This document shows positions 6,458 to 29,903 of a stretch of DNA of 29,903 nt, in pieces. The stretch is from a virus. The notes beneath the pieces were generated by a model, which saw only the letters and a list, made by a program, of their open reading frames with translations, searched no databases and had not been told where the DNA came from. The stretch lies in the IMG/VR virus record IMGVR_UViG_3300019754_000015, positions 1-29,903 of that record. One strand, given 5' to 3'. The translations under genes were made by a program, and so were the position numbers. The number at the start of each line of letters is the position of its first letter. The first letter of the stretch is position 1.

Positions 6458-6831
6458 TATTCTTCCTCCTCTTTTTCTTTGAGCGACACAAACAGATCAT
6501 GATATTTGAGCGTTATCTCATCCACGAAAGCACTATCAATGATAACTATGGTGGAAACAATCGCCCGTAGATCTTCCAGTAGTGCGTATGCTTCATCTTT
6601 TAGTTCCTTCTCTTTTTGCACTGCGAGGAGTTTGCTCTCTTGTGCTGTGGCTTCTTGCTCTGCTACTTCGAGACGCTGTAGGAGTTCTGTGTATTCTTTC
6701 TTTACTTTGGGTTTTGCTCTGTTGGTCGAGATAAGGGCATACGCCTCTCTATCACTCACTTCTATCTCATCTCCAGCAGAGGGAGAAGAGCCATTAGCGT
6801 CAGACCGTCCTACTAGAAGTTTGATTTTCAT
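6457..6831 (-). CDS. Small coiled-coil protein between capsid and connector genes
   Basis: A 124-residue protein with no firm family. The N-terminal 45 residues (KIKLLVGRSDANGSSPSAGD, then EIEVSDREAYALIS) resemble the short beta domain often encoded next to phage head genes, where a position-specific loss or addition of residues marks membrane-free head accessory proteins. Residues 45-85 form a Glu/Lys/Ala coiled coil, and the end is acidic (KEKEEEE). Its place directly downstream of the major capsid gene suggests a head accessory or connector-associated role. The function is unassigned. Confidence 0.6.
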   Translation of the reverse strand: MKIKLLVGRSDANGSSPSAGDEIEVSDREAYALISTNRAKPKVKKEYTELLQRLEVAEQEATAQESKLLAVQKEKELKDEAYALLEDLRAIVSTIVIIDSAFVDEITLKYHDLFVSLKEKEEEE

Positions 6832-6841
6832 CTACTGCTCC

Positions 6842-8017
6842 TTATGCCATTACCATTTTTTTAACGGCACCTGGTATCACGAGCTTTCCGTCAACTCTCT
6901 TGTCAACTCTAAAACCTACATGAGCAGTATCCGCATATTTCTCAGTTAGCTTTTTAACTGTCATTACGCTTCTGTCCTTGATGTGGTAATAAGAGAAGTC
7001 ACCAAACGCAATAGGACTCGCACCTGTAGCAACATCAGGAAAATGCTTGTTGACAATAATAGGGTAGCCATCGAGAGTGTCTGGCTCACCAGCAAAGCCA
7101 CGCGACCAGAGATAATTGCCATCGCCATCTTTCAGCTTACGGATAAGTTTTTTAGTGTTTTTGTTCATCATCCAAGATGCGTTTTGTTCATAGTCCTCAT
7201 CTAGGCTATACTCAAGATCTATAATCTCATCAGAGTCGATAGCTGTAGCTGAGGCGGTTGTCACACCTGTCTCAGCTGTGACCAATACGCCTGTAGGCTT
7301 GAGAGCTCCGTTGCCTGTAGCAAAGGCAGCTTCTTCAGACTTGGTAGTAGAGTTCACAAATTTCATACTAACATAGGATTCTATGCTGGGGATGGTATCT
7401 TGAAGAGCTTCGTCCGTGACTTTGACGATGCGACCTGTCTTGTATGCTTTGAGAACCACTCTACCAATAGTAGGGTCACTCTCTGCATATGTGCCAGCTT
7501 CATCTATCCAAGAGTTCTCTCCATCATCGCCCTCCACGGGTAGATTTTCTGTGGAGGTAGAGCTAGAAACAGTTGCAACATTTCTTATGTAAGATTTGGC
7601 AGTCAATCCAGCGATAATCGTCGTGGCAAAAGACTCAGGCACGAGATACCCCCCTTTGTCGTCTGCTCCGACACTCAGAGCTCTATGCTCTGTAGTGTCA
7701 AGTGCTTCACCTTTTTGGGCTTTCCAAAAAGCTCTTTGATATGTGGCTGCATTGTCGTCATCTCTTTGATCTTCATCGCCACCACCATGTAGCGGCTTGC
7801 TGAGTGATTGATCTAGGTCTGTCTCTCTAGCTATCTGCTTTTGCACTCTTTCGATTTGTCGAGTGAGGTCGTCGTACTCAGCTTCGAGGGCATCATAGCT
7901 CTCACCCTCTGCACCTGTAAGGTTGCGAGTTTCTGCTTCTGCACCATCTAGCAAAGCACGCATAGCGTCAGCTTTTGCCGCTCTTTCGTCGAGTAGTTTT
8001 TTGAGATGTTCGTTCAT
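6842..8017 (-). CDS. Major capsid protein, HK97 fold, with N-terminal scaffold domain
   Basis: A 391-residue capsid protein. Residues 1-105 form a charged coiled coil (the delta domain, which acts as an internal scaffold). A linker follows, with GGGDEDQRDDD. The mature capsid part starts near 115, with the family landmark DDKGGYLVPESFATTII at about 119-135, and later has ATGNGALKPTGVL and GFRVDKRVDGKLVIPGAVKK at the C-terminus. The start ATG at 8017 overlaps the protease stop. The neighbouring S78-type protease is expected to remove the delta domain during maturation. Confidence 0.95.
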   Translation of the reverse strand: MNEHLKKLLDERAAKADAMRALLDGAEAETRNLTGAEGESYDALEAEYDDLTRQIERVQKQIARETDLDQSLSKPLHGGGDEDQRDDDNAATYQRAFWKAQKGEALDTTEHRALSVGADDKGGYLVPESFATTIIAGLTAKSYIRNVATVSSSTSTENLPVEGDDGENSWIDEAGTYAESDPTIGRVVLKAYKTGRIVKVTDEALQDTIPSIESYVSMKFVNSTTKSEEAAFATGNGALKPTGVLVTAETGVTTASATAIDSDEIIDLEYSLDEDYEQNASWMMNKNTKKLIRKLKDGDGNYLWSRGFAGEPDTLDGYPIIVNKHFPDVATGASPIAFGDFSYYHIKDRSVMTVKKLTEKYADTAHVGFRVDKRVDGKLVIPGAVKKMVMA

Positions 8018-10026: not shown

Positions 10027-10106
10027 CGTATCTCCTTGATTTGTAGCAGTATAGCAAGGAGTGTGGGAACGATGGTTCCTACTGTTATGAAAAGTTATAT
10101 TATTTT

Positions 10107-11043
10107 TTATTTTTCGCTGGCGAAACTCTTTTTTATTTCTATTGCAATAGCCTGTATGACTGGGACGGTGACAGAGTTTCCAATCTGTTTATAGAGGGCA
10201 GAGTTAGAAAGTTTTTGAGGCAAGATAAAATCTTCAGGGAAGCCTTGGAGTCTCGCACACTCTCTAGGTGTTAATTTTCGTATATCTTTATCGTCAATTA
10301 TGAGAGGCACATTGTGTCCCCCCGTTCCCATATTTGCAGTTAGAGTAGGGCATAAACCGCTTTTGTTTTCTCGTGTATAAGTGCGTCGCCATTGATATAC
10401 ACTAGCTGTATTATTCATCTCGCGTTTGAGCTGGGGATAATAGCGGCTCTCTGTATAGTAAAACTTTTTGTCTGCTGTAGCGTCTGTTAGGTCAGAGACT
10501 TTTACTGTTAGCATTTTGTTTTGGAAAAGAGAACCTTGACGCAACAATATGATCTCTAAAGGCAACGATATAGATTCTCTCTCTTCCTTGCGGTATGTTT
10601 CCGTATTCTGCAGAGTTTAAAACTTTTGAATGGACAATATACCCTCTGCCCACAAGCTCCAAAGTAATGCGTTGGAAAGTTTTGCCCTCATCATGCCCCA
10701 CTAGATTTTTTACATTTTCTAAAAATACTACTCTAGGCGATAGAGCGTCAACAAATCTCAATATTTCAAAAAAGACATTGCCCCGAGTATCAGAGAACCC
10801 TTGTTGGTGTCCAGCTATAGAAAAAGCTTGACACGGAAAACCGCCTGTCAATATGTCTATTGGTGCGACCTCGGAGGTCTCTAGGTCGTTTAAATCTTTC
10901 TCAAAAAGTTTGTGAGTGTGGTTTTGGCGATATGTGACACACGCATTCTTGTCCATCTCGTTTGCCCATGCAATATCAAAGCCTGCTTGTTTAAAGCCAA
11001 GCTCTATGCCTCCAATCCCTGCAAATAGTCCACCTATTTTCAT
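10107..11043 (-). pseudogene. DNA (cytosine-5) methyltransferase, interrupted by a frameshift
   Basis: A C5-cytosine methyltransferase in two frames. The first part (ATG at 11043, ribosome site AAGGA) has motif I FAGIGG at residues 7-12, motif IV PCQAFS at 70-75 with catalytic Cys71, motif VI ENVKNL at 109-114, and motif VIII QGRERIYIV. It stops at 10492 after FSFPKQNANSKSL. The other frame, open across 10565-10107, supplies the rest: KVSDLTDATADKKFYYTES, the PTLTANMGTGGHN segment, then LTPRECARLQGFPEDF (motif IX) and YKQIGNSV (motif X). Removing one A from an A4 run near 10500, 10514 or 10519 restores one continuous protein. It may be a sequencing error or a real inactivation. The gene interrupts the usual terminase-portal order and probably protects phage DNA. 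Confidence 0.85.
10112..10125. repeat. Palindromic repeat TTTCGCTGGCGAAA, copy 3
   Basis: Perfect-arm copy forming the last codons (FASEK) of the cytosine methyltransferase. On the minus strand it is followed by AAAATAAAAAA, the same flank as copy 4. Confidence 0.85.
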
Positions 11044-11061
11044 CTTGGTTCCTTTTTTATT

Positions 11062-11075
11062 TTTCGCTGGCGAAA
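11062..11075. repeat. Palindromic repeat TTTCGCTGGCGAAA, copy 4
   Basis: Perfect-arm copy directly after the large terminase stop codon and before the methyltransferase ribosome site. It shares its A-rich flank with copy 3, so copies 3 and 4 bracket the methyltransferase gene. Confidence 0.85.
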
Positions 11076-12791
11076 TCATAATGACCGCATTCCTCTGGTT
11101 TCGTAGATGGATGTGGTCGACACATCCGTAGTCCCAAGATATAGAGCAAGGGCGTTCACTGTTGCAGCTACGCCGTCAATCTTCCGTATGGGGTGAGACT
11201 TATCAGGCATCACATTGTCCTGTGCGTTTTGGACTACTGTCATATTTGAGACCATCCAAGTCATGCAAGGATTACCATCATGGACGAATTGACCGCTAGA
11301 GATGAGCTTCCAAAACAATATCGTAGGTTCGGACAGCGTCCTGAAACCTTGGGTGATGGGTATACACTCATCATAAGTATCTCTGTATTTGTCTAGGTTT
11401 TCGTGGTCTAGGTCTTCATCAAACTCTAGCAGCATAGCTGTATCTATCGTTTCTGATATTAGTTTGATAAGATTTTTTGCTTTGGCTACATCGTAGCCGA
11501 GCATTGTCATGCTGTTGATCTCTTCTAGTATGTCATTATAGATGTACATATAATTGATAGTTGACCCTGGAGTCGCTGTGATGTACCCCTTGTCTACCCA
11601 TGCAGAGAGATTGATGCCTAGTAGTTTTTCTCTCTCTTGGATAGTGTCCGCTGGAATATAAAAGTGTGGCTTGAGATGGTATTTGCCATTAACTTTATAG
11701 AGTTTCACCCAAGAAGAAAAATCGTCTCTAAGGGAGAGATCAAGCCCACCGATGAACTCTCCAGATGTGTCTACCTCACCAACGCACGCGTTCCAATCAT
11801 CTAAATCTATGTAGTTGTTTGCAGCGGTTCTCCAAACATTCAAATGCTTCGTAAGGAAGTTGGCGAGCAGTTCTGGGCGTTCTCTCGCTCGCTTGGCGGT
11901 AGTCCGCATGAAATCTTTTGTGACAGACACGCCATAGTTTGGGTTAGCCGCTTCCCAAACCTCTTCTCTGAAGTACCAATCGTTGTATTCATCTCCCTTT
12001 GGCTTCTTTGGAGCTTCGGCTATGAACACAAATAGGGTATCGTCTTCTATAGTTCCCTCGACTACTTTTTTGGCGTGTAGGTAGTCTTCGTAATAGGGGC
12101 TTCCCACAGAGAGACCTGCTGTGCTAATATCCATAAGGTGCGGTTGCTTGCGAGAGATCATTGAGGATTTGACATTATCTCGGACTTTATTGTCTGTTTG
12201 GGCGTGGCGTTCGTCGGAGAGTCCGAAAGTTGCAGAGATACCATCGACTCCTGTACCTTTGGAATCCTTGCCGAGCTTTTTGAACTCTGTGTTGTTCGCC
12301 GAGAATTTTATCGTGGAGTAGGCGAGCGAGTAGTATTTCTTCAAGAGGTCATGGGATTTTAGCATCTCGTCAAAACCATCCCACGCGAGAGACGCTTGAG
12401 CTGCTTTTGTTGCAAAGGCATATACCTCTCCACCTTGCTCACCCCTCAGGATAGTGTCAACGATGGAAAGACCAGAACCAATGATTGTCTTGCCGTTTTT
12501 TTTCGGCAAATGCCAAAGAGATTCATCAAATCGTCTGAGCCATGTCCCCTCTTCGTTTTTTTTCTCCCATCCTGCCCATATCCCTATTGCTTTCCTCTGC
12601 CAATCTTCCAATATGAGAAGTTGCCCTGCTTTTTCTCCCTTGTAATGTTTAAAAGTTTGGAGGAGAGACACATACTTGTGTGCTATAGCGTCGTTAAACC
12701 GCAAGTGAGGCTTCGACCCATCGCGAGATGCTTCTAAATCTCGCTTATGTCGGTCAAAGGTGAGGGTGTAGGATGGGGTTATCTTGGTCAT
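11076..12791 (-). CDS. Terminase large subunit
   Basis: A 571-residue DNA packaging motor of the HK97-like Terminase_1 group. The ATPase has Walker A LPKKNGKT at 95-102 and Walker B ending in LSDE at about 191-194. The nuclease domain begins with GGLDLSLRDD at 348-357, whose first Asp is a metal ligand, and ends with KIDGVAATVNAL near 550, carrying another acidic ligand. The start overlaps the small terminase stop by ATGA. The stop codon is followed at once by a palindromic repeat (11062-11075). Confidence 0.96.
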   Translation of the reverse strand: MTKITPSYTLTFDRHKRDLEASRDGSKPHLRFNDAIAHKYVSLLQTFKHYKGEKAGQLLILEDWQRKAIGIWAGWEKKNEEGTWLRRFDESLWHLPKKNGKTIIGSGLSIVDTILRGEQGGEVYAFATKAAQASLAWDGFDEMLKSHDLLKKYYSLAYSTIKFSANNTEFKKLGKDSKGTGVDGISATFGLSDERHAQTDNKVRDNVKSSMISRKQPHLMDISTAGLSVGSPYYEDYLHAKKVVEGTIEDDTLFVFIAEAPKKPKGDEYNDWYFREEVWEAANPNYGVSVTKDFMRTTAKRARERPELLANFLTKHLNVWRTAANNYIDLDDWNACVGEVDTSGEFIGGLDLSLRDDFSSWVKLYKVNGKYHLKPHFYIPADTIQEREKLLGINLSAWVDKGYITATPGSTINYMYIYNDILEEINSMTMLGYDVAKAKNLIKLISETIDTAMLLEFDEDLDHENLDKYRDTYDECIPITQGFRTLSEPTILFWKLISSGQFVHDGNPCMTWMVSNMTVVQNAQDNVMPDKSHPIRKIDGVAATVNALALYLGTTDVSTTSIYETRGMRSL

Positions 12792-16550: not shown

Positions 16551-16574
16551 TATAACTCGTTACAACTTGTTATA
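16551..16574. promoter_or_regulatory. Operator-like repeat downstream of the leftward promoter
   Basis: TATAAC and GTTATA form 6-bp inverted arms, 12 bases apart. Within this, ATAACTCGTT (16552-16561) and ACAACTTGTT (16562-16571) are tandem 10-bp near-repeats, one helical turn apart. The element begins about 10 bases downstream of the predicted start of the leftward transcript, where a repressor would block it. Confidence 0.5.
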
Positions 16575-16589
16575 AAAAGCTTAGATGAG

Positions 16590-16618
16590 ATTATAGGATT
16601 ATTTTTTACTTTTGTCAA
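16590..16618 (-). promoter_or_regulatory. Consensus sigma-70 promoter for the leftward (lytic) unit
   Basis: On the minus strand, TTGACA (16618-16613) and TATAAT (16595-16590) are both perfect consensus hexamers with exactly 17 bases between. No other promoter of this quality is seen ahead of the replication-packaging-tail genes, so this is probably the main lytic promoter. Confidence 0.85.
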
Positions 16619-16657
16619 GTTATAGCAGAAGCGATAAAGCCATCAAGCTTATTTCCT

Positions 16658-16684
16658 AAAATAACCCTAAAATGGGGTTATTTT
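16658..16684. promoter_or_regulatory. 27-bp palindrome, AAAATAACCC-N7-GGGTTATTTT
   Basis: Perfect 10-bp inverted arms around TAAAATG. It lies between the leftward promoter and the rightward -10 element, so it is upstream of both and unlikely to be their terminator. It could be a repressor or initiator-binding site. As RNA it would also form a hairpin followed by an A/T-rich tract. Confidence 0.6.
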
Positions 16685-16689
16685 AATAT

Positions 16690-16709: not shown

Positions 16710-16715
16710 TATACT
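16710..16715 (+). promoter_or_regulatory. Weak rightward -10 element (TATACT)
   Basis: TATACT with no good -35, which is tolerated in Campylobacterota. It would give a leader of about 100 bases with two small inverted repeats (CCCTA/TAGGG at 16738-16752 and CAAGG/CCTTG at 16759-16787). Confidence 0.35.
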
Positions 16716-16810
16716 ATGGTTAAGAAAGAGAGAGAAACCCTAGAGTTTAGGGAATCTTCAAGGAGAGCCAACCCGCTTTGACCCTTGGAGATACCAGCTA
16801 GTAGCAGAAT

Positions 16811-16862
16811 AAGTTTAATTAAGCACTTTATGAGTGTTTATAAAATTTATATATTAAAGGAT
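16811..16862 (+). promoter_or_regulatory. Cassette promoter repeat, copy 1
   Basis: 52 bases identical to 18704-18755; the first 41 match 17238-17278 with one difference. It contains TATAAAAT (-10-like) and an upstream TTAATT about 17 bases away. Between them lies the inverted pair AAGCACT / AGTGTTT around TTATG, placed like an operator. It ends in AAAGGAT, the ribosome site of the gene at 16868. Confidence 0.75.
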
Positions 16863-16867
16863 TGGTT

Positions 16868-17209
16868 ATGAGAAAGTTAAATAAAAGTTTTAGTGGTGTT
16901 GCTGGTGGTGTTAGTTTTTACTATATGGTAAATGAATTGCTTAGGGACAATGGAGTAGATAAAGCTAAGTTGTACAAAAATTGGAAAAATGATAAAACAG
17001 TTTTTGAGATAAATAACAAAAAATATGTTATTTCACGCGGTAGTTATATATTTAAATACGATGGTCAAATTGAGTTTGAAGAGTTTTTTGGAAAAACAAG
17101 AGAGCTGAGCAACACGATAAAAAGTGATTATAGATGCTCCCACAGCTACGATGCTTATGGAAACTACCCAGAGGGGGAAGATTTTTTTATCGTAGACTTT
17201 GAGCGGTAG
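16868..17209 (+). CDS. Cassette gene 1, hypothetical protein
   Basis: A 113-residue protein of unknown function. The ATG at 16868 has AAAGGATTGGTT before it, the best-placed start. The sequence is Lys/Asn/Tyr-rich with short strands (KTVFEINNKKYVISRGSY, then IFKYDGQIEFEEFFG). It has no signal peptide or membrane helix. It is bracketed by the promoter repeat upstream and the AGAGCC/GGCTCT hairpin downstream, so it forms a self-contained unit. It is visibly more AT-rich than the structural genes, which suggests separate acquisition. Such cassettes in prophages are often lysogeny-expressed accessory genes (morons), an inference here. Confidence 0.75.
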   Translation: MRKLNKSFSGVAGGVSFYYMVNELLRDNGVDKAKLYKNWKNDKTVFEINNKKYVISRGSYIFKYDGQIEFEEFFGKTRELSNTIKSDYRCSHSYDAYGNYPEGEDFFIVDFER

Positions 17210-17217
17210 TGCATATT

Positions 17218-17234
17218 AGAGCCTCTTTGGCTCT
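17218..17234 (+). terminator. Hairpin after cassette gene 1
   Basis: AGAGCC-TCTTT-GGCTCT: perfect 6-bp stem with a 5-base loop, 8 bases after the stop codon. It is not followed by a strong U-run. The same stem recurs after cassette gene 2. Confidence 0.55.
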
Positions 17235-17237
17235 TAT

Positions 17238-17278
17238 AAGTTTAATTAAGCACTTTACGAGTGTTTATAAAATTTATA
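17238..17278 (+). promoter_or_regulatory. Cassette promoter repeat, copy 2
   Basis: Matches the first 41 bases of copy 1 except T to C in the centre of the inverted repeat; both arms and the TATAAAAT are unchanged. It directly follows the hairpin of the previous cassette. Confidence 0.75.
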
Positions 17279-17294
17279 CAAAAGGAAAAATAAA

Positions 17295-17612
17295 ATGATA
17301 TATGATAGAGAGGTTCTTCCAAAATTGGAAGATATAAAAAATGTAGAGAAAAAATTTTATGATGTGGGAAGTTGCCAGTGTGGCAATATCTCGGCTATAA
17401 TGGTAGAGACAGAAGAGGAAAGTTTTTTTGCGATAAATCAAGATTGGGATTTATCGATTACTGCAGATGGCACGGTAAAGATACCGTACATATCAACCCC
17501 ATTTAAAACAAAAAATTTAAGGGCTGTTGAGGTTAGCTATAGAAAGTTAACCGAACTATTACGAAATATAAAAATAGACAAAGATACACTTAAGCCTATG
17601 CTTTGCCAATAA
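17295..17612 (+). CDS. Cassette gene 2, hypothetical protein
   Basis: A 105-residue protein of unknown function. The ribosome site AAAAGGAAAAATAAA precedes the ATG. A CQCG lies near residues 27-30, followed by an alternating strand pattern (NISAIMVETEEESFFAINQD) and a C-terminal helix. No family is recognised. It lies between promoter repeat 2 and the second AGAGCC/GGCTCT hairpin, repeating the layout of gene 1, and is similarly AT-rich. Confidence 0.75.
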   Translation: MIYDREVLPKLEDIKNVEKKFYDVGSCQCGNISAIMVETEEESFFAINQDWDLSITADGTVKIPYISTPFKTKNLRAVEVSYRKLTELLRNIKIDKDTLKPMLCQ

Positions 17613-17621
17613 GGAGCAGAT

Positions 17622-17648
17622 ATGAAACCCCCAAACACTACCGAATAG
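17622..17648 (+). CDS. Eight-codon minigene with a strong ribosome site
   Basis: ATG to TAG encoding MKPPNTTE, preceded by AAGGAGCAGAT, one of the best ribosome sites in the region. The stop overlaps the start of the hairpin at 17647. It could be a leader peptide or the decayed start of a lost gene. Confidence 0.3.
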   Translation: MKPPNTTE

Positions 17649-17664
17649 AGCCTCACACGGCTCT
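17647..17664 (+). terminator. Hairpin after cassette gene 2
   Basis: AGAGCC-TCACAC-GGCTCT, the same 6-bp stem as the hairpin at 17218 but with a different loop, followed by TAAAATAG rather than a U-run. Confidence 0.5.
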
Positions 17665-17741
17665 AAAATAGAAACACATAACTTGCCTTATGGCTTACAA
17701 TTTTTTAAAGGGTCGTGACCTGCCACGGAAAAGGATAAGAG

Positions 17742-18665
17742 ATGGAAATAATTAGCTTTTTAGGAAACAGATTTTTAAAAGAGGGATTCCCCGAAGAAAA
17801 ATTTACTATAATAGGGGAATTTAAGAGACCTCCTTTTGCTAGAGTTGTCGAAGAATACGACATAGAAGATGAAAGAATTATTGCATCTATTCTTTATAAA
17901 AAATTCTTTAATGAAGATAGTATCCTCACTAAAGATGATAAATCCCTTATTGAAAGCGAAAAAACAAATAAAACACAAAAAACAAAAATTAGGTTAGCAT
18001 TGTCTGCGCTAATAGATAATGCCGTAGAAACCTCCGATATTAATTATATCAAAGAGAAAATTTCCGACTCCAAAATAAAAATACAGTGGAATGTCGAAGC
18101 AGATTTTATTTTGATAAAATCTATTTGTGGGGGGTATATGCCTACAACAATTTCTATTTATGGTGGTATCCTACTGTTTGGAAAAGATAAGGTACAGGAG
18201 AGGTTTTTCAATAGAATCTGCGAAGGTTCTCTGCTCTACCAAAATGTTGCTTTTTTGGAAAAATACGGCTTTGAGTATTCAGAAGCTCAAAAAACATTCC
18301 TGACAAGCGAAAACTACAATGAGGTAAACGCAAGTTTCTACTCTCTTAAATCCGTATCCAAATGGGTAGAAATCGACCATGTTCTTTTTTCTCACGCAAA
18401 CGGGCACAAATATGCAAACATTTTCCTTAGGGCATACATTAAGGGGAAAACGAATGCCCAAGTATGTAGCGAGATATGGGAATATTGGCAATATAGAGAA
18501 ATGGGAGGATGGCTCATTGACCTTCTCAAATTCAAAGAGGGGGAGAGAGTGAAGTGTGTCTCGTCTTCACAGGAGGGAGTGTACTTGTTTAAGAGGAACA
18601 GAATACACTACTTCAAAAATAAAGAAGGGTGTATCATTGGGAGTACTCGTATTATTAGTATTTAG
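17742..18665 (+). CDS. Cassette gene 3, hypothetical 307-residue protein
   Basis: A large AT-rich gene of unknown function, starting after AAGGATAAGAG. It has a charged N-terminal half (residues 1-110, with DDKSLIESEKTNKTQKTKIR) and a mixed middle (WNVEADFILIKSICGGYMP), then a Trp/Tyr-rich C-terminal third (AQVCSEIWEYWQYREMGGW, then a KGEGERV-like SH3-type strand region). It has no signal peptide or membrane helix. Unlike genes 1 and 2 it has no promoter repeat directly upstream; a small hairpin (CGTG/CACG at about 17715-17728) precedes its ribosome site. Its place among small cassettes suggests an accessory role such as superinfection immunity, but nothing in the sequence shows it. Confidence 0.75.
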   Translation: MEIISFLGNRFLKEGFPEEKFTIIGEFKRPPFARVVEEYDIEDERIIASILYKKFFNEDSILTKDDKSLIESEKTNKTQKTKIRLALSALIDNAVETSDINYIKEKISDSKIKIQWNVEADFILIKSICGGYMPTTISIYGGILLFGKDKVQERFFNRICEGSLLYQNVAFLEKYGFEYSEAQKTFLTSENYNEVNASFYSLKSVSKWVEIDHVLFSHANGHKYANIFLRAYIKGKTNAQVCSEIWEYWQYREMGGWLIDLLKFKEGERVKCVSSSQEGVYLFKRNRIHYFKNKEGCIIGSTRIISI

Positions 18666-18673
18666 CATTTCCA

Positions 18674-18693
18674 CTCTCCACAACTGTGGAGAG
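18674..18693 (+). terminator. Hairpin after cassette gene 3
   Basis: CTCTCCACA and TGTGGAGAG are perfect 9-bp arms around AC, eight bases after the stop codon and followed by AATAAAA. It is the strongest hairpin in the cassette region. Confidence 0.65.
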
Positions 18694-18703
18694 AATAAAA
18701 CAT

Positions 18704-18755
18704 AAGTTTAATTAAGCACTTTATGAGTGTTTATAAAATTTATATATTAAAGGAT
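18704..18755 (+). promoter_or_regulatory. Cassette promoter repeat, copy 3
   Basis: 52 bases identical to copy 1 (16811-16862), including the TATAAAAT, the AAGCACT/AGTGTTT arms and the AAAGGA ribosome site. Perfect identity over nearly 2 kb distance implies recent duplication or strong selection. Confidence 0.75.
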
Positions 18756-18760
18756 ATAAG

Positions 18761-18874
18761 ATGAAAGACTTTGAAGAGTTTAAGCGAGAATCGGAGCGAA
18801 ATGAGAAAATATTTGTACTTAGTGTATCATTATTTTTTATTTTCGGAGCTATATTTTGTAGAGTATATTGCTAA
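18761..18874 (+). CDS. Small single-helix membrane protein (37 residues)
   Basis: ATG at 18761 with AAAGGATATAAG before it. Residues 1-17 are charged (MKDFEEFKRESERNEK); residues 17-33 are a hydrophobic helix (IFVLSVSLFFIFGAIFC), followed by a short basic end. It is the first gene after promoter repeat 3 and lies 9 bases before the Cro-like regulator. Small membrane proteins of this kind often mediate superinfection exclusion, but the role is unproven. Confidence 0.7.
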   Translation: MKDFEEFKRESERNEKIFVLSVSLFFIFGAIFCRVYC

Positions 18875-18883
18875 GGAGAAAAG

Positions 18884-19069
18884 ATGCGAAAAGCAACAGG
18901 CAAAGAGTGTGCCAAAGCCCTTGGCATCACCACCAAGGCGTGGCAAAAGCGGAAGGCAGGAGAGGAGAAGACCTATCTAGCCATCGGTATCGCCACCTAC
19001 CTCGACCACCAAGAAGTAAAAAAAGAAGCGTGGCAAAAAGCCCAAGAGACAAAAGCTATAGAGTCCTAG
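18884..19069 (+). CDS. Small Cro-like helix-turn-helix regulator
   Basis: A 61-residue basic protein starting after TAAGGAGAAAAG. GKECAKALGITTKAWQKRKA fits a helix-turn-helix of the Cro/YdaS-like type: helix, turn at LGIT, recognition helix, then a segment ending in IATYLD. It is shorter than CI-type repressors and has no second domain. It lies between promoter repeat 3 and the promoter-operator at 19111-19179, so one of these elements is a likely target. Its base composition is clearly richer in GC than the preceding cassettes. Confidence 0.65.
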   Translation: MRKATGKECAKALGITTKAWQKRKAGEEKTYLAIGIATYLDHQEVKKEAWQKAQETKAIES

Positions 19070-19110: not shown

Positions 19111-19139
19111 TTGACTTTAGTAAGAAAATATATTATAAT
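19111..19139 (+). promoter_or_regulatory. Sigma-70 promoter for the maintenance block
   Basis: TTGACT and TATAAT with exactly 17 bases between, close to perfect consensus. It faces the small HTH genes, parA and parB. Confidence 0.85.
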
Positions 19140-19141
19140 AC

Positions 19142-19179
19142 TTTATCTAATCGTATCTAGTGTTATCCAATTAGATAAA
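19142..19179 (+). promoter_or_regulatory. Operator-like palindrome at the maintenance promoter start
   Basis: TTTATCTAAT and ATTAGATAAA are perfect 10-bp inverted arms 18 bases apart, starting 3 bases after the -10. The spacer carries further related half-sites (TATCTAGTG, TTATCCA). Repressor binding here would block transcription start. Confidence 0.7.
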
Positions 19180-19328: not shown

Positions 19329-19490
19329 ATGTTAGATACCGTAATGATAGGAATGCACATCTGGAGAGTACAGGGCAAAACAATAGTAGCCAATACACCC
19401 AAAGAGGCTAGAGAGGCGTATAGAATAGTAGAGGCACAAAATTTCGCCAGCGAAAAAAGACTACCAAAAGGAAAAAAATGGCAACACTAA
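19329..19490 (+). CDS. Small hypothetical protein (53 residues) carrying the palindromic repeat
   Basis: ATG at 19329 with AAAGGAAATACAC before it; it ends at 19490, overlapping the next gene by 13 bases. The N-terminal part (HIWRVQGKTIVANTPKEARE) has a strand-helix pattern seen in short regulatory proteins. Codons at 19442-19455 are the dispersed palindrome, giving FASEK. The rest is basic (RLPKGKKWQH). The function is unknown. Confidence 0.7.
   Translation: MLDTVMIGMHIWRVQGKTIVANTPKEAREAYRIVEAQNFASEKRLPKGKKWQH
19442..19455. repeat. Palindromic repeat TTTCGCCAGCGAAA, copy 5
   Basis: Perfect-arm copy inside the small gene at 19329-19490, read as FASEK in frame. It lies less than 1 kb upstream of parA. 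Confidence 0.85.
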
Positions 19491-19907: not shown

Positions 19908-20311
19908 TGAGAGACAAATTCATCCGATTTATGAAAGACCATAGAGCCTACGAGGAGTGGATAGATGCTATTGCACCATTATGTATAGAAGATATACAAG
20001 AGCATTTCATAGATGGTTGTGCAAAAGATATTCTAGCAGATGGGTTTTTGTTTTATTATTCAGATAATTCACAAGCCGATTGGCAAGAGCTACACGACCT
20101 TTGGGAAGAGATAGCAAAACAAACAATAACTATAGTTTTTCATAATGCCTACTGGAACTACGAAAAAGGCAGACTCTACAGAGCAGATCAAAGAGGCAAA
20201 AATACACACCTAGTGACAAATGATGTAGCACGAGTTGTGAAATACATAGCCGACTATCATAGAGTATGCCAAAAAACCATACATAACATATATGAGGAAG
20301 CGATAAAATGA
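19907..20311 (+). CDS. Hypothetical protein upstream of parA
   Basis: A 134-residue protein of unknown function, starting one base into the stop of the CI-like gene (TAATG) after an AAGGAGACA ribosome site. The N-terminal half is acidic and helical (EEWIDAIAPLCIEDIQEHFI); the C-terminal half is richer in aromatic and basic residues. It overlaps parA by ATGA, so it is translated with the partition genes. No motif identifies it. Confidence 0.7.
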   Translation: MRDKFIRFMKDHRAYEEWIDAIAPLCIEDIQEHFIDGCAKDILADGFLFYYSDNSQADWQELHDLWEEIAKQTITIVFHNAYWNYEKGRLYRADQRGKNTHLVTNDVARVVKYIADYHRVCQKTIHNIYEEAIK

Positions 20312-20925
20312 ATACAATAATAGCATTCGCACACACCAAAGGAGGTGTTGGCAAATCTACTCTTGCGTGGCATATAGCAAATGCCCTACAACACAGAAGC
20401 CAAAAAGTTAAGATTTTAGATTTAGACTTCCAGCAAACTTTGCGAGTAGTTGCAGATATTAGAGAGCAATATACTATGCCACCTATGGAAGTTCTTCAAG
20501 TAGAAAATGCTGATGAACTTATTGCTATATTTGAAAATAACGAAGATATACTAATAGTAGACATCGGAGGATTTGATAGCGATTTAAACCGTATTACTTT
20601 AGCCTATGCAGATACGATCATTGTACCAATATCAAATGCAATAACAGAGATGATAGGATTCCAAACATTTAAGGAAATTCTTAAAGAAGTAGATAGAGAA
20701 GATGTCCATATATTGCTTAATAATATACACCCTTTAGCCAAAGACTTTTCTGCGATAAGAGAGCTTGTAGAGGCTACTAACGCCACACTATATAGTCCTG
20801 TAGTACGCAGACGCAAAACCTATGAAGATGCAATGCAGGTAGGTGCTAGTGTCTACGAGACGAATAACAGCAAAGCCATAGCAGAGATAGAGGAGGTGCT
20901 AGATGCCATCTTCTACACATCCTAA
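20308..20925 (+). CDS. parA: ParA partition ATPase
   Basis: A 205-residue MinD/ParA-family ATPase. It has the deviant Walker A KGGVGKS at 11-17, DLD at 38-40, and the Walker A-prime/B region ILIVDIGG with Asp85. There is no N-terminal DNA-binding extension, so it is the short type. ParA coats the nucleoid and moves ParB-bound replicons apart at division. The end overlaps the parB start by 23 bases. With ParB and no integrase, it points to maintenance as a plasmid. Confidence 0.95.
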   Translation: MNTIIAFAHTKGGVGKSTLAWHIANALQHRSQKVKILDLDFQQTLRVVADIREQYTMPPMEVLQVENADELIAIFENNEDILIVDIGGFDSDLNRITLAYADTIIVPISNAITEMIGFQTFKEILKEVDREDVHILLNNIHPLAKDFSAIRELVEATNATLYSPVVRRRKTYEDAMQVGASVYETNNSKAIAEIEEVLDAIFYTS

Positions 20926-21787
20926 AAGAAAGATACTTGGCAAACTCGATACAGCACTCCTGACCAAAGTAACAAGAAGCCCAAATACAAAAGGTATCAC
21001 TCCATTTGCAGAGATACCAATAAATCAACTCTTTCCAAATCCCAACCAACCTAGGAAAGAGTTCAACCAAGAGTCCCTACAGGAACTAGCACAAAGTATC
21101 AAGGCACAGGGGCTTATACAGCCTATAGCCGTAAGCAAAAGAGATTTACAATATATGATAGTCTCAGGAGAGAGACGATACCAAGCTATATCAAAATATA
21201 CAGACTTCAAAACTATCCGTTGCCATGTCCTACAAGCAACGGATAAAGAGATCATGGAGATAGCCCTAGTAGAGAATATACAAAGAGACAACCTTACAGC
21301 AATGGAGGAAGCCCTCTATATACTAGAACTCCAAAAGACAGGCAACTACACAGGAGGAGAACTAGCCCATATCATAGGCAAAAGCCCAAGCTACATCTCC
21401 AAAGCCCTAAGAGCCACAAAACTACCAGAGCATTTAATAAATGCCATAAGAGGTAGCGATAGAACCTATGGGATGGAGATAATACAAGAACTAGCTAGAG
21501 TAAAAGACCCTGATAAACAGCAACTTCTCTTTGATATAGATGCAACAAGAGAAGAGATTCGAGAGCAATGTAGAAAAGAGAAAGAACCAAAGATAGAAGA
21601 GGATTCTCCCCAAGATATATTTACAAAAGCTCAAAAACTAAAATATTGTTTCACTGGAGAATGTGACCTAGAAGATTACTCGGTTATAAAAAGAGTAAGT
21701 GACGCATCATTTTCTCTTTACGAGAACACAGCAGACATCCTTTTAGAAAAGGGAAAAACCTACAAAATTACAATAGAGGAGATATAG
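20903..21787 (+). CDS. parB: ParB partition CTPase/DNA-binding protein
   Basis: A 294-residue ParB. CTP-binding motifs are visible: GLIQPIAV at 70-77, GERRYQA at 89-95 and ENIQRDNL at 124-131. A helix-turn-helix follows at about 150-172 (TGGELAHIIGKSPSYISKAL). The C-terminal part is acidic and less conserved. ParB should load at parS sites and slide. No parS array lies in a gap beside parAB because the genes here overlap, so the sites must lie inside genes or elsewhere. The six dispersed palindromes are candidates. Confidence 0.95.
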   Translation: MPSSTHPKRKILGKLDTALLTKVTRSPNTKGITPFAEIPINQLFPNPNQPRKEFNQESLQELAQSIKAQGLIQPIAVSKRDLQYMIVSGERRYQAISKYTDFKTIRCHVLQATDKEIMEIALVENIQRDNLTAMEEALYILELQKTGNYTGGELAHIIGKSPSYISKALRATKLPEHLINAIRGSDRTYGMEIIQELARVKDPDKQQLLFDIDATREEIREQCRKEKEPKIEEDSPQDIFTKAQKLKYCFTGECDLEDYSVIKRVSDASFSLYENTADILLEKGKTYKITIEEI

Positions 21788-26911: not shown

Positions 26912-27849
26912 TATATTACTCCTATTATTGTGGATTGTGTTTTTGTGGATTGTGTGTTTTCCAAAGGTATTTCAAATTCTTCAAAATACCCAAGAGTTAT
27001 TGTTTCTGAGAATTTGTCCGAATCTGTTGGCACAAAAAGAATATTCGTACCAATTATTCGAGATATTTTTTGAGCTACAATATCAAAAATATCCAACTCT
27101 ATCATCACTGAAGCAGACAATATTTTGATATGTCCATATCTCGTAATTGTTCTAAATCCTGTCACCTCGGATTTTTGAATAGTAGAAGTATCTTCATATT
27201 TGAGCGATGTTCCCATCAGCGTACAGCCTAACGGCTCTAGCCTGCCCATAACTACCACCCCTATTTGTACCCCTTGCGTAAAAGTGAATCGCAAAGTTGA
27301 CTGTGGTAGCCATTCCAATTCTCCCCTATATATTGTGTTTAAATCTTTCGCCTCTGCGTAAAAATAATCATAATAGCTCAAGCAACCGACATCTCGACCG
27401 TGGAACTCTTCTGTATATACAATATCACCTGTACTATCATCTATCTGCTCTATCTTCAAAAAATAAAATTCCATATCCAAGAGAGAGAAGGCTGTTGACT
27501 CAGAGAAGTCAAACTCTAATACAGCATTATATCCATAGGTTTGTGACCCAATAAATTCATCTACAGCAAGCATTTTGTAACTATTTACTGGACCCCAAAA
27601 AGTCCAAACATAAGGATTTGCAGGGGGAAAGTTCCCCACATTCCCTGCTGTAGAAGAACGGTATATAGCATTCAGTTCGCTTACTTTGCAATAGGCATTG
27701 AGATCAAAAGAAGTAGATGCACTATATTCTGCATAGCCTTCATCGACTATACCTGTAGAAAATGAAGGGGCTTGATAGTAGCCTACTTCATAAGTCACGC
27801 CATCCGCGGATACGATTTTATCTCCTCGAAGAGGCTCTAAAAAATTCAT
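26911..27849 (-). CDS. Tail-tip protein of unknown family
   Basis: A 312-residue protein immediately after the tape measure and before the receptor-binding protein, where a distal tail or baseplate protein is expected. It is beta-rich with many Tyr/Phe and Thr/Ser residues (YSASTSFDLNAYCK, FTFTQGVQIGVVVMGRLEPL). I recognise no diagnostic motif. It starts with ATGA overlapping the tape measure stop and ends with TAATG overlapping the next start, so the three genes are coupled. Confidence 0.65.
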   Translation of the reverse strand: MNFLEPLRGDKIVSADGVTYEVGYYQAPSFSTGIVDEGYAEYSASTSFDLNAYCKVSELNAIYRSSTAGNVGNFPPANPYVWTFWGPVNSYKMLAVDEFIGSQTYGYNAVLEFDFSESTAFSLLDMEFYFLKIEQIDDSTGDIVYTEEFHGRDVGCLSYYDYFYAEAKDLNTIYRGELEWLPQSTLRFTFTQGVQIGVVVMGRLEPLGCTLMGTSLKYEDTSTIQKSEVTGFRTITRYGHIKILSASVMIELDIFDIVAQKISRIIGTNILFVPTDSDKFSETITLGYFEEFEIPLENTQSTKTQSTIIGVI

Positions 27850-29903
27850 ATTGCGATCCTGCTTGTTTTTGTGTTTCTATCAATATTTTTATTACTATCT
27901 CTTATCATTTTAAGTTCTCTCCTTAACTCTCCAAGCTCTTCTCTTAGCACTTCTATGAGCTCTTTTTGCCCCAATGGATCATTGGGATTTTTTAGAGGAA
28001 TGACCGCTTCGCTATATCCTGCCTCACCAATCAAAGCTCTTGTCGGTCCCGTGACAATCCCACCCTCTGCAAAGTGATGATAGCTAGAATCATTTTGAAT
28101 AAAGCTTTGTATCATTCCTGCACCATTGAGTCCGCTATCATCTGCCCAGTAGTCAATTTCGGCTTGATTAGGATTGCGAGAGAGTCCTTCTGTATAGAGA
28201 AGCTTTACAAATGCATCCCTACTCATTTTTCCGTTTTCTAGTTCTGCAACAGCCAAAGACTCCCCTAAATTGGAAAAATTAACGGCGGAGCCAGACTCTA
28301 CCTGTGCCGTCCAATATGCTAGACCTGCACTATCTGCTGTACGACCAAGAATATCCTTATACACATGTCCTACTAAATCGGCTGTAGTTAACGCGGTACT
28401 CACAGGTTCAGGCGCAACACTTGCCACAGGTGCAGAGGCAACACTTACGGCTGTAGGACTGCTGTACCCACCCACCGAAGCAGAATATGAAGAGCTTAGA
28501 CCACCCACAGCTTCGTTTATGCTTTTTAGCCAAAATACAGCTTCCTCTTGTAAATCATTTATTGCAGAAATGAGGGGGTCTTTATTATCTGCCAAATCTT
28601 CCAAATCGTTCAATACGATATTTCTCTCGTGTTCGTACTGTGCAGTTGTAGAGACCGTATCTCGTACATTCCCAAGATATGCATCTGCACTCTTGGTGAG
28701 CATATCCACAAGACTAGAGAACTGTTCTGCATTTCGAGTAGATACAGAATCCGTAACTTTTTGTAGGTAAAAAGAGTAACTCAGTTGAGACTCTACTAGC
28801 TTATTTGTGTCCAATCTAGCATTGTCTACATAGTTTTGCAAAGTATCTAGTGCATCTATCATAGATGTAAGTAGTGCCGTCTGCTCACTATAATAGGAAT
28901 CTACCATAGACATAGACTCTTCTGTCAGTGCTATCATTTCATCTGAATCGCTAGTGTTTGCTATCTTTGCTATCATATCTTCTATCTGTAGAGTATTTGT
29001 AGTATCAACTGCTCCATTTTCGTAAAAACTAATTCTCTCTTCCAGTGAGAGCTGTAACCCATCTAAACTAGAGATAAGCTCTTCTATCTTTGCTTTTTCT
29101 GCATCCATAGCGGATATTGCATCTGCAAATGTAGAATCAACTGTAAGCAAAGCATCTCCTAGAGCCTCCCATTCCGCTAACTCTTCAGAGCTTAAACCGC
29201 TTTGATTTGCAGAAGAAAATGCAGAGAGATAGTTTGAGCTATCTATGCCATATAGTCCTGTATTTTTTTGCACCGATGCCAAAGCGATTCCAGTGGCATC
29301 AATAGCTTGTTGATATACATCTGCATCATATTCGCCACGCATATCCATCTGACTCATCGCAAAGTTTGAGGCTACAGATGCATACTGTGCAGATAGTGCC
29401 AAAGAATCAAATGTGGTTTCTAATGCCTTTGCAGATGTTCGTACATCTAATAGTGCATCGCCCATCTCTTGCCAATCTTCTAGTTGCTCCTCGGTGAGAC
29501 CTCCGCTCTGAGCCTTTGCAAATTCTGCAAGATAATTTTGATAAGTAACTCCTGCAAGGTTTGTACTCTCTTCTATCTCTTGCAAACGGGACTGAGAAGC
29601 TAGAAGCATATCTTCATATATCTTTCTATCCCAAGCTTCACCCTCTATTTTAGATTTTTCGCTTGCGAAATTTGAAGACTGCGCAAGGATTGATGCCAAG
29701 GTAGCTTCTTTAGGCAAAGCATTTTCCAATGTTTTGATAGCTCCAGATAAATCTTTCCAGCTATCTAACTGCTCTTTCGACATCTCTCCAAGAGAAGCTT
29801 TCTCAAACTCCTCAAGGAAATTTGATGAATCTATCCCTACTAATCCTGTGTTTTGCACTACCATCTCTAGTTGCATCTTCTTAGCATCTAGTTCATCTAT
29901 CCA
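27846..29903 (-). CDS. Tape measure protein, C-terminal part with DUF4214 region (enters from the window end)
   Basis: Continuation of the tape measure frame that exits at position 1; it is open at 29903. It carries three more copies of the TG-x7-NFL/NYL...LxxWxxL repeat, spaced about 95 and 101 residues apart, embedded in coiled coil. Codons at about 28080-28390 match a DUF4214 region (KDILGRTADSAGLAYW, then LYTEGLSRNPNQAEIDYW). The end has the usual tape measure tail signature: EGGIVTGPTRALIGEAGY, then EAVIPL at about 28000, followed by a basic coiled coil. The stop codon overlaps the next gene by ATGA. The 14-bp palindromic repeat at 29657-29670 is translated here as FASEK. Together the two parts encode more than 1,830 residues, long for a 30-kb genome. 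Confidence 0.9.
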   Translation of the reverse strand, partial: WIDELDAKKMQLEMVVQNTGLVGIDSSNFLEEFEKASLGEMSKEQLDSWKDLSGAIKTLENALPKEATLASILAQSSNFASEKSKIEGEAWDRKIYEDMLLASQSRLQEIEESTNLAGVTYQNYLAEFAKAQSGGLTEEQLEDWQEMGDALLDVRTSAKALETTFDSLALSAQYASVASNFAMSQMDMRGEYDADVYQQAIDATGIALASVQKNTGLYGIDSSNYLSAFSSANQSGLSSEELAEWEALGDALLTVDSTFADAISAMDAEKAKIEELISSLDGLQLSLEERISFYENGAVDTTNTLQIEDMIAKIANTSDSDEMIALTEESMSMVDSYYSEQTALLTSMIDALDTLQNYVDNARLDTNKLVESQLSYSFYLQKVTDSVSTRNAEQFSSLVDMLTKSADAYLGNVRDTVSTTAQYEHERNIVLNDLEDLADNKDPLISAINDLQEEAVFWLKSINEAVGGLSSSYSASVGGYSSPTAVSVASAPVASVAPEPVSTALTTADLVGHVYKDILGRTADSAGLAYWTAQVESGSAVNFSNLGESLAVAELENGKMSRDAFVKLLYTEGLSRNPNQAEIDYWADDSGLNGAGMIQSFIQNDSSYHHFAEGGIVTGPTRALIGEAGYSEAVIPLKNPNDPLGQKELIEVLREELGELRRELKMIRDSNKNIDRNTKTSRIAI
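29657..29670. repeat. Palindromic repeat TTTCGCTTGCGAAA, copy 6
   Basis: Perfect 6-bp arms with a TT centre, inside the tape measure gene, where it reads FASEK on the coding strand. Confidence 0.8.
29781..29903. repeat. Near-identical repeat shared with the window's start (copy 2)
   Basis: Second copy of the 123-bp sequence at 13-135. It encodes the repeat beginning WIDELDAKKMQLEMVVQ. Upstream in gene sense the sequence runs off the window; downstream it diverges from copy 1 right after the codons for EMSK (EQ here, DD at the window start). Confidence 0.9.

Follow-up and report, generated by a model that had tools for sequence, protein, structure and literature searches.

A predicted RNA stem-loop repeated before the genes of a putative accessory operon with different cargo in two unrelated phages

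Genes and hairpins of the module

We analysed a stretch of 29,903 bases from a single viral record (the window), in which three plus-strand copies of one repeat start at positions 16809, 17236 and 18702. All features of the module named here lie on the plus strand, except for an inverted repeat without assigned strand, TAAAATAACCC/GGGTTATTTTA (16657 to 16685), which stands at its upstream edge. It is followed by a probable −10 box, TATACT (16710 to 16715), and by a leader RNA hairpin with the conserved loop AGCCAAYCCGCUUUGA (16751 to 16795). Repeat copy 1 (16809 to 16850) is a predicted 42-nt RNA hairpin that ends 17 nt 5′ of the AUG of cargo gene 1 (113 aa; 16868 to 17209). After this gene come a cassette-end hairpin, AGAGCC-TCTTT-GGCTCT (17218 to 17234), and, one base further on, repeat copy 2 (17236 to 17277), which has the same hairpin fold and precedes the 105-aa ORF of cargo gene 2 (17295 to 17612). 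A second cassette-end hairpin, TAGAGCC-TCACAC-GGCTCTA (17646 to 17665), has no repeat behind it; it leads to cargo gene 3 (307 aa; 17742 to 18665), which lies between this hairpin and repeat copy 3, has a leader of its own and lacks a repeat directly before it. The third cassette-end hairpin, CTCTCCACA-AC-TGTGGAGAG, occupies 18674 to 18693. Repeat copy 3 (18702 to 18743), identical to copy 1, stands before a small 37-aa ORF (18761 to 18874), whose translation contains a hydrophobic stretch resembling a membrane segment, and before the gene r1 (18884 to 19069), which encodes a 61-aa basic protein (pI 9.5) with a probable helix-turn-helix (HTH).

This layout agrees in most respects with a first-pass annotation of the same DNA, which had described AT-rich genes (GC is 0.33 to 0.35, compared to 0.40 for the window and 0.505 for the small HTH gene at 18884), each of the three long ones followed by a hairpin. 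Its further statement that the repeats precede the genes is accurate for those at 16868 and 17295 and fails for the longest, at 17742. We rejected the cassette-end hairpins as intrinsic terminators, as a T-run follows none of them and all are missing from the list of the terminator scan. A tiny ORF (MKPPNTTE; 17623 to 17646) with its own RBS-like GGAG separates cargo gene 2 from the end hairpin behind it and is possibly a remnant or a leader peptide.

From 16809 onwards, copies 1 and 3 match base for base over 54 positions, which include the 52 from 16811 noted at first, and their ribosome-binding site sequence is also common to both. Copy 2 differs by a single T to C, located between the arms as had been reported and more precisely in the hairpin loop, and then continues with its own spacer before the start codon. 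In 20 first-order Markov sequences of window length, the longest exact direct repeat was 13 to 16 nt, and the repeat is therefore not due to chance.

None of the three cargo proteins has recognisable relatives. In PADLOC and Pfam they gave weak matches only, all below cut-off, and the product of gene 3 found no relatives in viral contigs, phages or plasmids. The predicted structure of the gene 1 product was poor (44) and was left unused.

The same module in a second phage

Neither the repeat nor the module was found in 22 records related by terminase, a strict-pattern search of species genomes returned no further copy, and a search of the viral collection with two looser patterns identified only one other contig with the repeat, IMGVR_UViG_3300033146_007484 (L085), which was matched by the pattern with the loop left free. 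It holds two copies, at 6548 and 6887. A covariance model run over 32 loci detected nothing beyond these five copies and their weak reverse-strand echoes, and the repeat matches no Rfam family (the best, freshwater-2, scored 21.1 bits against a gathering score of 49.9).

The order of elements in L085 repeats that of the window: an operator-like element, a −10 box, a leader hairpin, hairpin copies before ORFs, an AGAGCC..GGCTCT hairpin and, as the closing gene, a homologue of r1 (the two proteins share 40% identity over 52 aa, with E 1e-9; the whole-record ORF comparison gave 35% over 51 aa). In both phages AGAGCC-N5-GGCTCT is located one base before the second repeat copy, and the three occurrences of the AGAGCC hairpin in 969 kb of loci examined all fall in these two modules. 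The leader stretch AGCCAAYCCGCTTTGACCCTTGGAG is likewise present only in the window and L085 among the loci examined. The leader stems of the two phages differ at two pairs, in a U-A to C-G exchange compensated on both sides and a U-G to C-G change confined to one side.

By comparison, the cargo proteins of the two phages are no more similar to each other than to shuffled sequence. The structural genes are also of different families (PHROG 9 and 10 for the terminase and head protein of the window, PHROG 2 and 1328 for those of L085). When all window ORFs were compared with the L085 record, only r1 and a small ORF outside the module (19329 to 19490) had counterparts, the remaining hits being one marginal match and one antisense frame. 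Thus, two phages with unrelated structural genes have in common a promoter region, a leader, the repeat and end hairpins and an HTH gene, while their cargo differs. The proposal made from the window, a modular platform on which accessory genes are exchanged, is supported by this comparison: in an otherwise unrelated phage, the repeat, leader, end hairpin and HTH gene recur with other cargo. The module does not track the phage backbone, because the 22 terminase-related records are without the repeat and the unrelated L085 has the module. At the matching place, the terminase-related records examined have other genes, for example CI-like repressors, and a weak phage match to the L085 HTH protein has a different gene neighbourhood. 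In L085, the second cargo ORF (6943 to 7167) is broken by a frameshift at an A-run, through sequencing error, decay or a programmed shift.

Fold of the repeat and the promoter question

Folded as sense RNA, every copy adopts the structure ((((((((...(((((((((...)))))))))..)))))))), a 42-nt hairpin with an 8-bp stem, a 3×2 internal loop, a 9-bp stem and a triloop. The inverted repeat that had been described in each copy is thus present, and is longer than described, forming a 17-bp hairpin of two helices. It is more stable than shuffled sequence in all five copies (z between −3.9 and −4.8, with no shuffle equally stable), and the sense strand folds with energies of −10.0 to −14.0 kcal/mol, compared to −2.2 to −6.8 kcal/mol for the antisense strand, which folds poorly because two invariant G-U pairs (5-38 and 15-29), among others, turn into A-C mismatches on that strand. 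When the copies are folded within longer sequence, the lower stem is absent from the minimum-energy structure of both L085 copies owing to competing pairings, and the mean pairing probability of the hairpin is 0.87 and 0.75 for these copies.

The comparison covers five copies (four distinct sequences) from two phages. All 68 of 68 pair cells are standard across the five copies, with double-sided changes at two pairs and single-sided ones at two more. Control structures slid by 1 to 3 columns contain zero doubly changed pairs, and 28 of 500 column shuffles matched the count of double changes, both of which stem from one copy. That copy, the second of L085, has CCCAC-AAG-GTGGG where the first has CACTC-TTT-GAGTG; its upper stem is changed on both strands, which suggests that the pairing is kept rather than the sequence. 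The lower stem and internal loop are kept, the upper stem is fixed in length and not in sequence, and the loop is free. As judged from sequence comparison and folding, what the 52-bp repeat specifies is a stem-loop in the sense-strand RNA whose geometry is constant. Its placing is also fixed: the distance from hairpin to AUG is exactly 17 nt in four of the five copies, drawn from both phages and with differing spacer sequences. In the fifth it is 14 nt, and there the nearer ATG opens a frame that stops after two codons.

These properties bear on the earlier model, in which every repeat would serve as promoter plus operator and the cassettes would be transcribed separately under one regulator. 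The −10-like sequence on which it was based is real: TATAAAAT is retained in each of the five copies, the ribosome-binding site is common to copies 1 and 3 as well, and promoters of Campylobacterota, the phylum to which the phage's kin point, often have no −35 box. Even so, a consensus promoter scan found no TTGACA-like hexamer at 16 to 18 nt from TATAAAAT and listed none of the three repeats, whereas it did list strong promoters with a −35 elsewhere in the window (TTGACA-17-TATAAT at 16618 on the minus strand and TTGACT-17-TATAAT at 19111). Two further points speak against a promoter with an operator: a fold that is kept on the sense strand, including its G-U pairs, when both arms of the upper stem have changed in one copy, and the fixed distance to the AUG. 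Moreover, both phages have a separate conserved promoter-like region and a leader 5′ of the first copy, contrary to one promoter per gene. The three repeats are probably not three separate promoters, and we regard separate transcription of the cassettes as unlikely.

The promoter-like region of the window was recognised by its alignment with L085 and by its spacing. Opposite TATACT (16710 to 16715), which we infer to be the −10 box of the module promoter, L085 has CATAAT; as at the repeats, the consensus scan found no consensus −35 for this putative promoter. A conserved element, CCCTAAAATGRGG, is located 32 bp before the −10 box in both phages. The inverted repeat at 16657 to 16685, whose core CCCTAAAATGGGG (16665 to 16677) is conserved in L085 as CCCTAAAATGAGG, is a candidate operator of this promoter, and the full inverted repeat around CCCTAAAATGRGG occurs in the window only, not in L085. 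The first scan had called 16657 to 16685 a terminator, which we rejected because this stretch lies between two divergent promoters and would receive no transcript from either side.

Two further promoters lie nearby. At 16551 to 16618, a perfect leftward promoter, TTGACA-17-TATAAT, precedes an imperfect inverted repeat, TATAACTCGTT/AACTTGTTATA, and is likely a repressor-controlled early promoter for the replication genes; 19680 may be a CI-like gene. Directly after the promoter at 19111, and upstream of genes 19478 and 19680, another inverted repeat, TTTATCTAATCGTAT/ATCCAATTAGATAAA (19142 to 19179), is a candidate operator.

Possible RNA-level control, regulator and cargo

The explanation we favour, and hold to be modestly probable, is a compact accessory operon with one promoter, one mRNA and RNA stem-loops before its cistrons, which unrelated phages would have acquired with different cargo. 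The single promoter near 16710 would give rise to one polycistronic mRNA, starting near 16722, on which the stem-loops would act, giving several cistrons the same treatment. The stem-loops themselves would be intercistronic processing sites of the RNase III type, as between the early genes of phage T7, and the small HTH regulator r1, closing the operon, would act at CCCTAAAATGRGG. RNase III-type processing fits best because the lower stem, the internal loop and the length of the upper stem are fixed, while the sequence of the upper stem and the loop are free; such a pattern of conservation would be easier to reconcile with an enzyme that gauges the length of an RNA duplex and cleaves at an internal loop than with a protein that recognises the loop.

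The RNase III sites of the T7 early region are irregular hairpins made of two helices around an asymmetric internal loop, located between cistrons of one early polycistronic transcript and just before ribosome-binding sites; the work of Dunn and Studier (1973) is cited in PMC5371410. The hairpins of the module are predicted to have the same two helices, asymmetric internal loop and position before ribosome-binding sites. Unlike the T7 sites, they are near-identical copies common to unrelated phages, and their lower stem is almost all A-U.

Close behind processing comes a translational operator, a possible though doubtful reading in which r1, or another phage or host protein, would bind every stem-loop and jointly repress or activate translation. 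The fixed distance of 17 nt would place the hairpin at the edge of the ribosome's footprint, and r1, the last gene of both modules, codes in the window for a basic protein (pI 9.5). The loop and upper stem, however, which such proteins usually read, are the variable parts, and the weak profile matches of r1 are to HTH_17 and excisionase DNA binders. A precedent would be Aca2 of Pectobacterium phage ZF40, an HTH protein that is said to bind both DNA and RNA and to be autoregulated through a stem-loop. As there, the accessory operon has an HTH regulator and a stem-loop close to a start codon; in contrast, several cistrons carry a copy here, and r1 is without similarity to Aca2. A tentative extension, which we consider more doubtful still, is a portable chassis in which one repeated RNA stem-loop controls several cistrons and an HTH protein regulates both DNA and RNA. 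If this were true, several unrelated cistrons would share one portable RNA signal, and a new cargo gene that arrived behind a copy would fall under the same RNA-level control.

A very improbable alternative is that the repeat is a recombination site acting as single-stranded DNA, like integron attC, with the ORFs being cassettes moved by a recombinase. The two share a conserved outer stem, an internal loop or unpaired spacer and a variable end, with one ORF per site, and the cargo does differ between the phages. Yet no integrase or tyrosine recombinase was recognised among the window ORFs, part of which were run against profiles, and the G-U pairs favour pairing on one strand, the sense strand. 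A recombination site would also give no reason for the fixed AUG distance, and copies 1 and 3 share sequence as far as the ribosome-binding site. Two other identities for the repeat were considered and seem unlikely. RNA anti-CRISPRs are solitary mimics of CRISPR repeats (PMC10651486), and the constant 17-nt distance to the AUG argues against one here; a ParB centromere site is disfavoured by the location of the repeat ahead of start codons and by its G-U pairs in the sense strand.

Within the favoured operon model, r1 is the best candidate for the regulator because it is the closing gene of the module in both phages; genes 19478 and 19680 have no counterpart in the L085 module. It is more likely the operon's transcriptional regulator than an RNA binder because of its weak profile similarity to HTH_17 and to DNA binders of the excisionase type. 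No match above cut-off was obtained for r1 in Pfam, NCBIfam or PADLOC, a comparison with the PDB by sequence matched no Aca structure, and Foldseek found no match with its predicted structure, which is of moderate quality (77). By analogy with the Aca proteins of acr-aca operons, we infer that r1 may act on CCCTAAAATGRGG.

The layout of the module resembles that of an acr-aca operon. There, as here, variable small ORFs are closed by a conserved small HTH gene, and the same HTH gene accompanies different cargo in unrelated phages, a likeness that we tested through r1 homology, cargo shuffles and the families of head protein and terminase. To our knowledge, acr-aca operons have not been described with repeated RNA hairpins ahead of their cistrons. 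Aca proteins are described as repressing their operons by binding inverted repeats (PMC9638941); the operator-like dyad by the module promoter is a candidate counterpart. We do not class the module as acr-aca, because r1 matches no known Aca family (by the cut-offs of Pfam, NCBIfam and PADLOC, and by sequence against the PDB) and because the operator and any inhibition by the cargo are putative.

Anti-defence cargo is plausible because of the architecture of the module and because an ArdC-like anti-restriction gene adjoins the L085 module in divergent orientation (ArdcN, 1.9e-30; PHROG 7245, anti-restriction). Counter-defence genes that are still to be recognised are hard to find because they are similar to nothing. 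In phages, the RNA motif together with the small HTH gene would mark a cargo platform, and if the motif marks such operons, a motif search would yield candidate genes directly.

The window carries the partition genes ParA and ParB (20308 to 21787). Among plasmids, the closest ParA relatives are from Campylobacterota, for example Hydrogenimonas, Nitratiruptor and Sulfurimonas, which loosely points to a host among the deep-branching, mostly vent-dwelling Campylobacterota. In Nitratiruptor, one genus of this group, CRISPR spacers are reported to target the strain's own prophage, and no known anti-CRISPR was found (PMC9723563). Together with the lack of a recognised integrase, ParA and ParB suggest a plasmid-like prophage.

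The ends of the record (5 to 135 and 29773 to 29903) are 97% identical. They probably meet within a tape-measure-like gene, in a circular or permuted genome, rather than forming a true terminal repeat, because the right copy lies inside an internally repetitive, tape-measure-like ORF (27846 to 29876, minus strand). A C5 cytosine DNA methyltransferase gene (10103 to 11079), split into two overlapping ORFs that both match PF00145, is flanked by two identical 23-bp direct repeats, TTTTTTATTTTTCGCTGGCGAAA (10103 to 10125 and 11053 to 11075), and has the appearance of an accessory gene that was inserted and carries a frameshift.
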